45,973 bases of DNA from Geobacteraceae bacterium (lineage in GTDB: Bacteria; Desulfobacterota; Desulfuromonadia; Geobacterales; Geobacteraceae). Positions 32,458-36,357 of the stretch are shown piece by piece. Below the pieces are notes generated by a model. That model was given only the letters and a program-made list of their open reading frames with translations. It searched no databases and was not told the DNA's origin. Location: assembly GCA_024281055.1 (NCBI GenBank), contig JAMXLF010000043.1, positions 1 through 45,973 on the forward strand, given 5' to 3'. A program made the position numbers and the translations under genes. The first letter of the stretch is position 1. Every line of letters starts with the position of its first letter.

Positions 32458-32797
32458 TCACCGACACGAGCCGCTCCGCACTGCACGGAGGTAGAGGTTG
32501 TTGCTGGTCTTATTGAGGTTGTACACCGTGCCGTATCCCATCACGCTCCACGCGTTATCGGAATTCCCTTCAGCGGTAGTGGCCGTCCAGTACTTGGCGT
32601 AGCCAAATTGCGTGGGCCCAAATATGGGATCGATGCACGTGCCTGTGTCTGTACCGCAACCCACCTGACCAAGATTAATAATCCCTTTGAATTCAGCGAT
32701 CGATGGCAAACGCCAGTCACAGTAATTCGCGAAGCAGCCGGTGATGGCCCCGCCGTCGCTCGCACAAGACAATAAGTGTCAGACTGTTTATTCTCAT
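32458..32797 (-). pseudogene. Remnant of an Lcl-domain (DUF1566) secreted protein
   Basis: The last about 104 codons encode a good Lcl C-terminal domain (CDWRLPSIAEFKGIINLG ... KYWTATTAEG ... LRAVRSGSC), intact to its natural end. It lacks a plausible start. An ATG at 32797 with AAAGGAGA begins MRINSLTLIV, looking like a signal start, but in another frame. Upstream, a 28-codon frame (32810-32896, MKRRLILPGLFVLFLVG) looks like a second signal peptide that ends at a stop. The pieces suggest a secreted protein that lost its middle by deletion and frameshift. Lcl domains are thought to act in surface or collagen-like protein contexts. Confidence 0.7.
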
Positions 32798-32951: not shown

Positions 32952-34118
32952 TCACCATCTATCAAGACGTTCAGGGTTAACCCGCCTCCTCAGTCGATGT
33001 GCTTTCCGAAAGGACATCTCCACCAGGCCGGTTTCGTTGGTGTTGGCATCCACCAGCATGTAGCCGTTCAGGTAGGTGCCGGTGTTGTCCATGGAGATGG
33101 CGTCGATGAACTCGGTGATGGAGCCCGCAAATTGCTCGGCCAGGGCCGCCCGCCAGAGGGTCCAGATGCCGAGGGGCTTCACCTGGCTGTAGGACATCCG
33201 GAGCGTCGTCTCGTTGAACATGAGCCCCTTGTTGTTGTAGCCGAAATCGGTGGTCGAGGCGATCAGGCCAGGCGTTGCGGCGTTGAAGGTGATCATGTCG
33301 TCGTTGACGACGAGGGTCTGCGCCATGGTCTGGGAGAGAAATCCCGACCAGGAGTTGTGGGTCAGGATGACCTCGCTCCCCGCGCGCTTCAGGAAGGCGG
33401 AGCACCGGCTCGAAATGTCGGCGGACCTCACGCCGCCCGGCGCGAACTCGGAGAGGAAGGAAATGGTATCCATGAGGTCGCAGAAGGCGTTCACGAAATA
33501 GAGATCCATGAAGGTGAGACCGGCGGTCTCATAGCCGAGGAAGCGTTCCGAGGCCTGAAAGTAGTTGCCTCCGGGGAGCCAGGTCCCGGAAAAGTCGAGG
33601 TCGGCCGGCTGCTCGCGAACGACCCCGTGGTAGATGCCGAGCATGCGGAAGAGGAGCCTCTTCAGGCGGTACGCCGTGACCGGGTCGGTGGCCGGGTTTT
33701 CCAGGTGCGCGAGAAAGGCGGCATAGTTCGCGTTAAGCACCACGGCCGCCTTGTTCAGCTCGGTCTGGGACGGGCCGTGCTGCTTGGGGAAGGTGTGGTA
33801 CGGGTCGGTCAGGTAGGCGATGTCCCAGGCGTTGTCCCGGGCCGATACGATGATCTTTCCCTGCAGCTTCCCCTGGATGAAGCCGGCCCGGTACTCGGCC
33901 TTCAGGTTATTGGCGTCCCGCGATACCACCGTGAGATTGACGATGTTGTTGATCGTCTGCATCGCGCCCGAGGCGGTGGCGTCGAGCGTGTAGGTCGCAA
34001 GCTCCGGCGCTCTTCCCGGTGCCAGGTACGACTTGCCCGGGGTCAGTTCCTGGGCGATTGCCGCGGTGGGGAAGAAGGCGGCGGCCACTAACAGGATGAT
34101 ATAACGTTTGAGTTCCAT
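32952..34118 (-). CDS. Phospholipase B-like Ntn hydrolase, exported, probably 3'-truncated
   Basis: A 388-residue exported protein with a signal peptide (ELKRYIILLVAAAFFPTAAIAQ). It resembles the phospholipase B-like/laminar ancestor family of N-terminal nucleophile hydrolases. It has SSRCSAF at about residue 239 (candidate nucleophile Cys), then LTHNSWSGF, ASTTDFGYNNKGLMFNETT and the NTGTYLNGYMLVD stretch that matches the family's N-SGTY-NNQW-M-VD. I chose ATG 34118 because GGAGGG lies before it and the signal begins there; the upstream frame to 34412 is out-of-gene. The last 20 residues (KAHRLRRRVNPERLDRW) are unlike the family, which runs on for another domain, so the 3' end is probably lost or frameshifted. 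It follows the MBL-fold gene by 41 bases in one riboswitch-led operon. Confidence 0.75.
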   Translation of the reverse strand: MELKRYIILLVAAAFFPTAAIAQELTPGKSYLAPGRAPELATYTLDATASGAMQTINNIVNLTVVSRDANNLKAEYRAGFIQGKLQGKIIVSARDNAWDIAYLTDPYHTFPKQHGPSQTELNKAAVVLNANYAAFLAHLENPATDPVTAYRLKRLLFRMLGIYHGVVREQPADLDFSGTWLPGGNYFQASERFLGYETAGLTFMDLYFVNAFCDLMDTISFLSEFAPGGVRSADISSRCSAFLKRAGSEVILTHNSWSGFLSQTMAQTLVVNDDMITFNAATPGLIASTTDFGYNNKGLMFNETTLRMSYSQVKPLGIWTLWRAALAEQFAGSITEFIDAISMDNTGTYLNGYMLVDANTNETGLVEMSFRKAHRLRRRVNPERLDRW

Positions 34119-34159: not shown

Positions 34160-35467
34160 CTAGCCGCTGCGAGCCCTTCCGACGCCGATCTGCATCAGGT
34201 CTTCGCCGATGATCAGCTCCCCGGAAAAGTTCCGTTTCGCCTTCACCAGATGCCCGACCGGGGCATTGCCGGGGACGATGTGGTTGAGGACGAGCGTCCT
34301 CACCCCGCACTCCTCGGCTACGCCGCCCACCTCGCCGATTTTGGTGTGTGTCGCATTGAGGTGCTCGATGAGCGCGCCCGGCACGCCGGTTCCGGCCAGG
34401 ACCTCGATCCACGCCTCGTCGATCACCTCATGGACGAGGACGTCGGCGCCCTGCGCCAGCCTCTGCAAATTTCCGCAGGTATTGGCCCCGGTGTCGCCGG
34501 ATATCACGACCGAACCATCGGGGGTGTCGAACCGGTAGGCAAAGGATGGAAAGACCTGGTGATGGTCGACCAGCGTGGCCCGGACGCTGACGCCGTTGGC
34601 GGGGTTTCGGTACACCATGAACGGCGCCAGCGGCGGACACGGCGTCGTGTTCGGGTCGATGAAATACGGGGCGCATTGGCCGATCGGGTCCAGAGGGCCG
34701 CGCCGGGGCAACGGTATCGGGATGTCGCTCCCTTCCGTCCAGCCGATATCATGGAGTTCGACCAGGGTGGTGAAGTCGAGCCAGCCGTTATTCAGGGTAA
34801 AGTCGTTGATCGTCTGGGCGAAGGCTTGCCACAGAAGGTTTGTCATCTCCCTTGTTCCGGGCGTCGTCGAGCTGCCGGGTGTCTCGACGATCGTCCCCTG
34901 GTAGCCGCTCTTGTTTTCCTCCAATTGCCCGCGGTCGCCGGGGCCGAATACCTTGAGCGGCCGCGCCGGTTGGCCGGGCGCCTTCGGGCTGCCGAGGCCT
35001 GCGTTCTGGCCGACCAGCAGGAGTGCCGGATAGTCCGCGGTATGGTCCAGGTGGAGATGGGTAAAGAAGAGCGCGTCCGCATGCTGAAGGAACCGTGACT
35101 GGGTTTCCTCGACCTTACCCCCCGCCGTGTTCACGAAAATGCTGGCGTTGAATGCCTCCGCCATCCGGTGGGTCGCACCGTGACCGAGGTCGACGAGGTA
35201 GATGGTCTCTCCCACGACCAGCGCCGTCGAGGCGCTCACTCGGTTCGATCCCGGATACCATGCCGGCCCTCCCGCCGTACCCAGGAGGACCAGCCGGGTG
35301 TTGAAATTACCCGCACCGGGACGGGTGATGACGCTTGGCGATGTCGCAGCCCAACCGACCGTGCCAAAACCCGACAGCAGTTGGGCCGTGACCAACGACG
35401 AGCCGGCTCTCTTGAGAAATGTCCTCCGCGAGATACCGTACTTGAGCGCTTCCCTGATCAGACACAT
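34160..35467 (-). CDS. Tat-exported metallo-beta-lactamase-fold hydrolase
   Basis: A 435-residue MBL-fold enzyme with a twin-arginine signal (SRRTFLKRAG, residues about 13-22) followed by a hydrophobic stretch. It should therefore be exported folded with its metals. Metal motif FTHLHLDHTADYP is near residue 138; VISGDTGAN and the late LNHIVPGN (His ligand) complete the set. It resembles the tRNase Z/arylsulfatase-like branch of MBL proteins (VYLVDLGHGATHRM-like core). The substrate is unknown. It is the first gene after the GEMM-I riboswitch and is followed by the phospholipase B-like gene, suggesting a cyclic-dinucleotide-controlled pair of exported hydrolases. Confidence 0.88.
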   Translation of the reverse strand: MCLIREALKYGISRRTFLKRAGSSLVTAQLLSGFGTVGWAATSPSVITRPGAGNFNTRLVLLGTAGGPAWYPGSNRVSASTALVVGETIYLVDLGHGATHRMAEAFNASIFVNTAGGKVEETQSRFLQHADALFFTHLHLDHTADYPALLLVGQNAGLGSPKAPGQPARPLKVFGPGDRGQLEENKSGYQGTIVETPGSSTTPGTREMTNLLWQAFAQTINDFTLNNGWLDFTTLVELHDIGWTEGSDIPIPLPRRGPLDPIGQCAPYFIDPNTTPCPPLAPFMVYRNPANGVSVRATLVDHHQVFPSFAYRFDTPDGSVVISGDTGANTCGNLQRLAQGADVLVHEVIDEAWIEVLAGTGVPGALIEHLNATHTKIGEVGGVAEECGVRTLVLNHIVPGNAPVGHLVKAKRNFSGELIIGEDLMQIGVGRARSG

Positions 35468-35521
35468 GGGAACCTCTCGAACCAGTTCGAGTGATTGCCC
35501 CGCATTCCTGCGGCCAGAACG

Positions 35522-35566
35522 AAAAAAGGCCGAGCTGCCAGGAACATTATCCGTGGCAGCTCGGCC
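35522..35566 (-). terminator. Intrinsic terminator in the leader of the MBL-fold/PLB-like operon
   Basis: A perfect 13-bp stem (GGCCGAGCTGCCA with its complement) and a 13-base loop, followed by six T on the minus strand. It lies before, not after, the gene at 35467, so it is an attenuator. Its 5' arm is the 3' end of the GEMM-I aptamer, so aptamer and terminator cannot both form fully. Confidence 0.9.
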
Positions 35567-35640
35567 ATCTTCGAACGGAAGACCCGCCGCTTTCCGCCCC
35601 CTTCTCGCGGAGGGTTTGGCTTTTCAGGATGCTGAAAAAC
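35554..35640 (-). promoter_or_regulatory. GEMM-I class (cyclic di-GMP or cGAMP) riboswitch aptamer
   Basis: Read on the minus strand: a leading hairpin TTTTCAG-CATC-CTGAAAA, then GCCAAACC, a GC stem capped by a GCGA tetraloop with an AA bulge, then GGGCGGAAAGCGGCGGGTCT, a variable arm, and ATGGCCGAGCTGCC. These match the order and key words of GEMM-I (xCAAACC, GNRA-capped P2, GCxxAAGC, CGGGTCT, AxGGCCGxGxTGCC). P1 looks weak. The overlap with the terminator predicts that ligand binding prevents termination (an ON switch); this is inference. Whether it binds c-di-GMP or 3',3'-cGAMP cannot be decided by eye. Confidence 0.78.
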
Positions 35641-35651
35641 TTTCGATTAAC

Positions 35652-35679
35652 ATTCTATAATTTATGTTTCTCCTGTCAA
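35652..35679 (-). promoter_or_regulatory. Promoter of the riboswitch-led operon
   Basis: On the minus strand, perfect TTGACA (35674-35679) and TAGAAT (35652-35657), 16-base spacer. Transcription would start near 35645, exactly at the beginning of the riboswitch leader. Confidence 0.7.
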
Positions 35680-35775: not shown

Positions 35776-36357
35776 ATGACAGAGATAACGTGGGAAAAAG
35801 ACCTGCAGGCCGCGCTGGCCCTTTCCGCGCAAAGCCATAAGCCGATCTTCCTCGACTTCTGGTTCAAGGGGTGACTGGGCTGCCAGGCCATGAATACGGG
35901 TCCGTATTCCGAAAAGGTAGTGCAGGACTTTGTGCAGGAGGAATTCACCCCGGTCAAGAGCGAGTGCTTCTTCGACAACCGGACCGAGGCGATGAAGCAG
36001 TTCGGCGTCTCCTGGACCCCGACCCTGATCGTCCTCGATGCGACCGGCCGGGAGCACCACCGGATGGTGGGGTTCGTGCCGACCGACGACTTCCTGGCGC
36101 ACCTGAAGCTGGGCAAGGGGAAGGTCCACTTCGACCGCTTCCGCTTCGTCGACGCCATCAAGGAGTTCACCGCCGTGATCGAGCAGCACCCGGCGGCGGG
36201 CGTGGTGCCCGAGGCGGTCTTCTTCCTGGGGGTGGCCGAGTACTGGCACACCCACGACCCGAAGGGGTTGCGCCGGTCCTACGACACCCTCGTCGCCCGT
36301 TTCCCCCAGAGCGAGTGGGCGCGCCGCGCCAAGCCGTACGAACAGATTCCCCTCTAA
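35776..36357 (+). CDS. Thioredoxin-like selenoprotein (UxxC active site), UGA at codon 33 read as selenocysteine
   Basis: A 193-residue protein if UGA 35872-35874 is read as Sec. ATG 35776 has AAAGGAGG at 35760-35767. The first 32 codons form the thioredoxin beta-strand (KPIFLDFWFKG), then TGA, then LGC: a Sec-x-x-Cys active site in place of CxxC. The frame continues through the cis-proline (VSWTPTLIVLDATG) and a C-terminal TPR-like helical part (FVDAIKEFTAVIEQHP ... YDTLVARFP) to TAA. A hairpin at 35892-35909 fits a SECIS. Calling the gene from the later ATG (35890) would lose the active site. Probable role: disulphide or peroxide reduction in the cytoplasm, as no signal peptide is present. 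Confidence 0.88.
35892..35909 (+). promoter_or_regulatory. Bacterial SECIS hairpin of the thioredoxin-like selenoprotein
   Basis: GAATACG and CGTATTC form a perfect 7-bp stem with the loop GGTC. The loop starts 25 bases after the UGA. The GGUC loop also occurs in the apical loop of the E. coli fdhF SECIS, and the spacing fits known bacterial elements. Confidence 0.75.

Follow-up and report, generated by a model that had tools for sequence, protein, structure and literature searches.

The GEMM-I regulon described for Geobacter is a cGAMP regulon concerned with electron transfer (PMC6456294). Positions 20, 47 and 92 of these aptamers follow the numbering of Vc2 (PMC11218506), and whether nucleotide 20 is G or A decides between c-di-GMP and cGAMP, the change A20G alone being enough to convert a Geobacter cGAMP aptamer to c-di-GMP (PMC6456294). 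For pilM, in which a strand of the aptamer doubles as a strand of the terminator, ON behavior has been described (PMC9262584). Some G. metallireducens genes for which a cGAMP response had been predicted rose in a high-c-di-GMP, low-cGAMP strain (PMC12285248), and nucleotide 20 may therefore predict the response in the cell imperfectly.

We analyzed a 45,973-nucleotide stretch of a Geobacteraceae genome (hereafter the window) and consider it quite likely that it contains a c-di-GMP-I (GEMM-I) riboswitch that acts as a transcriptional ON switch on the gene for an exported MBL-fold hydrolase and on the truncated phospholipase-B-like (PLB-like) gene behind. The features concerned are as follows.

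35652..35679, minus strand: sigma-70-like promoter TTGACA-16-TAGAAT, 11 of 12 consensus matches
35619..35640, minus strand: 9-bp hairpin (arms 35640-35632 and 35627-35619), −8.5 kcal/mol, within the unconstrained MFE structure
35551..35629, minus strand: GEMM-I (c-di-GMP-I) aptamer, an Rfam match, with G at nucleotide 20 (35620), A47 and C92
35549..35630, minus strand: aptamer stem P1 in a shifted register, AUCCUG (35630-35625) with CA-[C]-GGAU (35555-35549), 6 bp and one bulge
35528..35566, minus strand: intrinsic terminator with a perfect 13-bp stem (arms 35566-35554 and 35540-35528), hairpin −34.3 kcal/mol
35522..35527, minus strand: T6 tract of the terminator
35476..35491, minus strand: perfect hairpin CTCGAA-CTGG-TTCGAG, directly before the MBL start codon
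34160..35467, minus strand: MBL-fold protein P0001, 435 aa, PF12706 at 41.3 bits (cut-off 27)
33006..34118, minus strand: remnant of a PLB-like (PF04916) gene, residues 1-370 of about 560, with the frame stopping at 32952

A GEMM-I identity had been proposed for this leader in a preliminary description, and the covariance search bears it out: the aptamer at 35629-35551 scored 51.1 bits with RF01051 (E 7.6e-9, gathering score 35). With the riboswitches of that family (Vc2, Bc1) it shares the aptamer fold, G20, A47 and C92 and a GNRA-type P2 loop, read from the sequence as GCGA at 35608-35605. It differs from them in having C21-G46 in place of the consensus pair G21-C46 and in building its terminator with the aptamer's own 3' strand. 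Nor is an 11-nt tetraloop receptor evident in it by eye. With the cGAMP riboswitches of Geobacter (GEMM-Ib; pgcA, pilM) it shares the kind of host bacterium, the C21-G46 pair (as carried by most A20 copies of its own genome) and, with pilM, the doubly used aptamer strand and an ON logic that is predicted for the window; nucleotide 20, however, is A in those riboswitches and G here, and the target genes differ. RF03167, the model of the c-di-GMP-I-GGC variant, gave the top Rfam score (59.6 bits, E 1.1e-11), which passes the gathering score of 59 by only 0.6 bit, and its consensus carries G where the window RNA has A47; we therefore do not file the window RNA as a GGC variant despite the higher score. 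On sequence grounds, the leader's place in a known riboswitch class is well supported, and its aptamer and terminator overlap in the manner of an ON-type platform, whose switching is predicted.

The elements between 35679 and 35467 on the minus strand are ordered promoter, 9-bp hairpin, aptamer, terminator with T6 tract and start codon (35467). The promoter already proposed was recovered, with its boxes at 35679-35674 (TTGACA) and 35657-35652 (TAGAAT) separated by a 16-nt spacer, and the scanned region held two promoter-like sites, one per strand, compared with 0.3 in shuffles. The short hairpin reported upstream of the aptamer also exists, but it overlaps the aptamer's 5' end and includes G20 and C21, and thus represents an alternative that competes with the aptamer fold, not an independent element ahead of it. 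The hairpin at 35476-35491 (minus strand) overlaps a ribosome-binding-like site, GAGAGG (35478-35473), and might form a second control layer for the MBL gene.

The 5' arm of the terminator (35566-35554) consists of the 3' strand of aptamer stem P3 plus C92 and C93, so that the earlier claim of a perfect 13-bp terminator begun by the aptamer's last segment was right on both counts. When the leader was shuffled 5000 times with a first-order Markov model, a perfect 13-bp repeat with a loop of at most 30 nt never appeared; a terminator scan restricted to loops of 3-8 nt omits this terminator. Because the shared arm comprises both the P3 3' strand and the ligand-contact nucleotide C92, aptamer and terminator should be mutually exclusive, and a hairpin of −34.3 kcal/mol should win when ligand is lacking. 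The shared strand and the analogy with pilM, for which ON behavior has been described in the same arrangement (PMC9262584), agree with the ON switch predicted before. RNA polymerase would make the aptamer first; binding of c-di-GMP would then hold the P3 3' strand in the aptamer, blocking the terminator and letting the genes be transcribed, and with ligand absent the 13-bp hairpin and the U-tract would stop transcription.

For comparison with related leaders, a core pattern was searched through the order of Geobacter, with matches in 53 of 141 genomes (104 among the matches listed) and none for a reversed control pattern. Mostly from these matches we picked by hand, and hence non-randomly, 32 leaders for folding and 31 for alignment; at least one match, L191, was omitted because its second aptamer half is unrecognizable, and the alignment does not include L211, which has a long insert. 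When the last 22 aptamer nucleotides were folded with 60 nt downstream and the remaining aptamer left off, between 11 and 21 of the 22 paired downstream in all 32 leaders, 19 of them in the window. Across the 31 aligned leaders (30 of them distinct), eight pairs of P2 and P3 have changed on both sides, compared with 4.6 in shuffles, of which 4 of 500 reached eight; the covariation score of P2 and P3 was reached by none of 500 shuffles, and sliding the partners by 1-3 columns gave clearly lower values. For P1, covariation is not clear (mean energy −4.22 kcal/mol with its own partner and −3.91 with partners swapped across leaders). The window's P1 has two mismatches in the Rfam consensus register, and a one-step shift gives six pairs and one bulge. 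At −5.5 kcal/mol, compared with a mean of −4.2 for the 32 leaders, it is not the weak stem it had been taken for.

Unconstrained folding favors other structures over the aptamer fold, and the gap between free and aptamer-constrained energies, 6.4 kcal/mol in the window, is the largest among the 40 own-genome aptamers measured (next largest 5.5), so that some decay is possible. The suspicion that the aptamer is divergent is thus upheld in part, by the fold gap but not by P1, which is no weaker than in related leaders. If the riboswitch had decayed to the point that its aptamer no longer folds, leaving the terminator constitutive or the genes silent, this gap, the mismatches in P2 (C-A) and P3 (G-A) and the truncation of the second gene would all be in keeping with it. 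We nevertheless consider such decay unlikely: both mismatch positions are commonly unpaired (P3 in 16 and P2 in 6 of 30 leaders), the leader keeps the 26 columns that are invariant across the alignment (as it must by definition), a 35-nt core is identical to that of the G026 leader, promoter and terminator are near perfect and the MBL frame is open from end to end.

To place the aptamer among those of its own 4.4-Mb genome (G000), 150 first-look candidates were scored with each model, which gave 40 matches with RF03167, 41 with RF01051 and 41 places combined; the 40 RF03167 matches are the highest number in the 48 family genomes searched (range 6-40). All 41 places carry A47. Nucleotide 20 is A in 29 and G in 11, the window included; the remaining place is degenerate and falls under the gathering score. 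Among the 29 A20 copies, 24 have the C21-G46 pair, and some of the 29 lead genes that we take, by eye, to be cytochrome-like, pilM-like and transpeptidase-like.

The window's nucleotides at positions 20, 47 and 92 are G, A and C, which favors c-di-GMP and disfavors cGAMP, and they point to c-di-GMP as the better guess for the ligand. Both c-di-GMP and 3',3'-cGAMP had been named before; the former agrees with G20, A47 and C92, and the latter was rejected as nucleotide 20 is G. That the leader might respond to cGAMP as a GEMM-Ib riboswitch, as the majority in this genome are predicted to, would accord with the 29 A20 copies, whose targets partly resemble genes of the published cGAMP regulon (PMC6456294), but appears quite improbable given that the window's own copy is one of the 11 with G20 and that, according to the same source, the single A20G change converts a Geobacter aptamer to c-di-GMP. 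That it is the Rfam GGC variant with altered ligand specificity is highly improbable even though RF03167 is the best-scoring model, because the "GGC" of the name, judged from the model consensus, would denote nucleotides 20/47/92, in which case an RNA with A at 47 is not a member, and A47 recurs in all 41 own-genome matches, where the search motif had left that base free.

For each of the other ten G20 copies of the genome, the first gene was defined as the longest open frame with a start no more than 900 nt downstream, and these genes were searched against Pfam. Three contain Fn3 (joined by FG-GAP in one of them and by InlB-type repeats in another), five match DUF3466, a response regulator, an MFS transporter, a phosphoribosyltransferase and a PAS-GGDEF-EAL response regulator, and two of the ten have no Pfam match. 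In the PAS-GGDEF-EAL case (L160 1475-4159; G000 C80:8974 onward) the G20 GEMM-I lies directly before the gene, a possible c-di-GMP feedback on its own metabolism. GGDEF matches in this genome number 26.

Downstream of the leader, the MBL-fold gene was as described before: its 435-aa frame is intact, and P0001 carries a Tat motif, SRRTFLK (residues 13-19), and HLHLDH (137-142), which fits HxHxDH. The structure model (pLDDT 76.7, pTM 0.81) has its nearest fold match in the arylsulfatase 8gyg of Pseudoalteromonas (21% identity), followed by PNGM-1 and RNase Z, and 8gyg is the best match in the sequence search as well. Fold and metal motif are common to all of these, but identity in the fold alignments is 21% or less, and P0001 is longer and has a Tat signal. 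Relatives of P0001 gave some match, mostly weak, in 19 of 117 genomes. Named relatives with at least 47% identity come from Methanospirillum, Methanolinea and other Methanomicrobiales, a Bryobacterales MAG, a Desulfonatronum MAG, a gammaproteobacterial MAG (74%), a Lentisphaerae MAG (partial match) and two Geobacteraceae MAGs, and this patchy distribution suggests that the gene has moved horizontally. In the gammaproteobacterial MAG (L098 5803-6010), a tRNA gene immediately precedes the start of the MBL gene and might have served as an integration site. Around other MBL loci, archaeal and otherwise, no GEMM-I was found within the flanks scanned at 17 loci (only 20 nt upstream at L111, and excluding the nine weakest loci, L115-L123); a conserved pairing of riboswitch and MBL gene in those loci was accordingly rejected.

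The second gene, previously taken for an intact PLB-like partner, is cut at about residue 370 of 560. It matches PF04916 with 51.6 bits (cut-off 27) and is 77% identical to a 560-residue relative in G004, aligning to residues 1-370, after which the frame runs on into unrelated sequence. There is no significant trace of the remaining C-terminal third within the window (best E 0.26), and we take the gene as 3'-truncated. Directly behind it lies an open frame at 32458-32772 (minus strand), presumably a fragment of a DUF1566/Lcl-type protein. On the other side of the leader, a divergent thioredoxin-like gene at 35776-36357 (plus strand) contains an in-frame TGA that would give a UxxC motif (FWFKG-U-LGCQAM). 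Among 32 homologs with E < 1e-25 in 58 genomes, the window's included, 24 have one TGA and eight have none, seven of these eight being from genus g13 and one from G005. As 24 of 32 homologs read through one TGA, the gene likely encodes a selenoprotein; the RNA fold 3' of the TGA is only modestly stable (z −1.3).

The setting of the riboswitch had been called unfamiliar. The target is indeed unusual, but the setting recurs. PF04916 gave 21 matches in 20 of the 147 genomes searched (own genome counted), and in the tree of these 21 proteins the window falls in a clade of six (support 100/100) with G004, G027, G034, G040 and the second copy of G029. A G20 GEMM-I lies 0.3 to 8 kb upstream, on the same strand, in five of the six, although wide flanks were taken for G027, G034 and G040 since the core-pattern search had already revealed riboswitches there, and within equal reach (0.8-3.2 kb) the count is two of six compared with none of the 15 others. 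The riboswitch lies about 0.3 kb directly before the PLB-like gene in G029, one gene upstream in the window and 6-8 kb upstream in G027, G034 and G040, with the intervening genes on the same strand. At the other 15 PLB loci, no GEMM-I was present in the flanks scanned (about 0.8-3.2 kb upstream) and no core-pattern match on their contigs, many of which are short; two GEMM-I matches on the G002 contig, roughly 20 kb (68.8 bits) and 14 kb (54.5 bits) upstream, were left uncounted. The riboswitch label clustered as tightly on the PLB tree in 2 of 500 shuffles, and the close relatedness of the three g13 genomes reduces the number of independent cases.

The leader before the PLB-like gene in G029 and that before an MBL homolog in G013 (52% identical over 57 residues, up to the contig end) are near-identical, which ties MBL and PLB-like genes to one riboswitch lineage. 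Between the riboswitch and the MBL gene of G013 (L074, about 310-360), a decayed second GEMM-I-like stretch can be seen by eye. In the closest relative, G004 (MBL 78% identical), the PLB-like and MBL genes are adjacent in the opposite order to the window. No GEMM-I was found around these two genes even at E 5, and a degenerate riboswitch there was rejected.

Riboswitch-led clusters of exported proteins (judged by signal-like starts), most of them from one unannotated paralog family, occur in three other genera, in G008, G029 and three g13 genomes. From strand and spacing, we infer that they are operons. Their gene orders are as follows.

G027: riboswitch, opA, opB, opC, opD, PLB, Asp/Glu racemase, opG
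G029: riboswitch, PLB, racemase, opG, opB, opC, opB, opD, two further proteins, opA
G008: riboswitch, 1165-aa protein, partial opB, opA, opG, opD, opG, one more protein

G034 and G040 keep the order of G027 with about 1.7 kb extra between opD and PLB, a stretch in which G040 has an additional open frame some 500 codons long. In G026, the riboswitch that shares the 35-nt core with the window leads one opB-like gene. The opA, opB, opC and opG proteins, about 470-550 aa long and with signal-like starts, form one paralog family, of which 12 members were aligned. The family has no credible Pfam or NCBIfam match (best Pfam E 0.0065, under its cut-off), and PDB searches gave no match for one of its members and nothing useful for opD. 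Of the 48 family genomes, 8 gave a match to an opG query, in two cases only a weak one, and the window's genome gave none. Compared with the riboswitch-led exported-protein set of these other genera of the family, the window probably holds a reduced version.

By title and abstract opening, no link between GEMM-I and PLB-like or MBL-fold targets was found in the literature, a set that does not take in the two 2015 PNAS papers on Geobacter GEMM-I riboswitches, and no description of G20 targets like these or of an exported-protein regulon was found in the literature covered. The riboswitch class is thus known, and its exported-protein targets may be new. Tentatively, and with somewhat more doubt than conviction, we suggest that in the order of Geobacter a c-di-GMP-I ON subtype with G20 and C21-G46 leads an undescribed, gene-shuffled exported system (the 470-550-aa paralogs, a PLB-like protein, an Asp/Glu racemase and, in some lineages, a Tat-type MBL protein), which would amount to c-di-GMP-controlled extracellular degradation or surface processing and of which the window holds a reduced copy. 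As for physiology, we infer that hydrolases might be exported at high c-di-GMP, in surface or biofilm life. If the cluster is real, one ligand would control a whole set of uncharacterized exported proteins, and the level of c-di-GMP would provide a handle for switching them on and probing their role.
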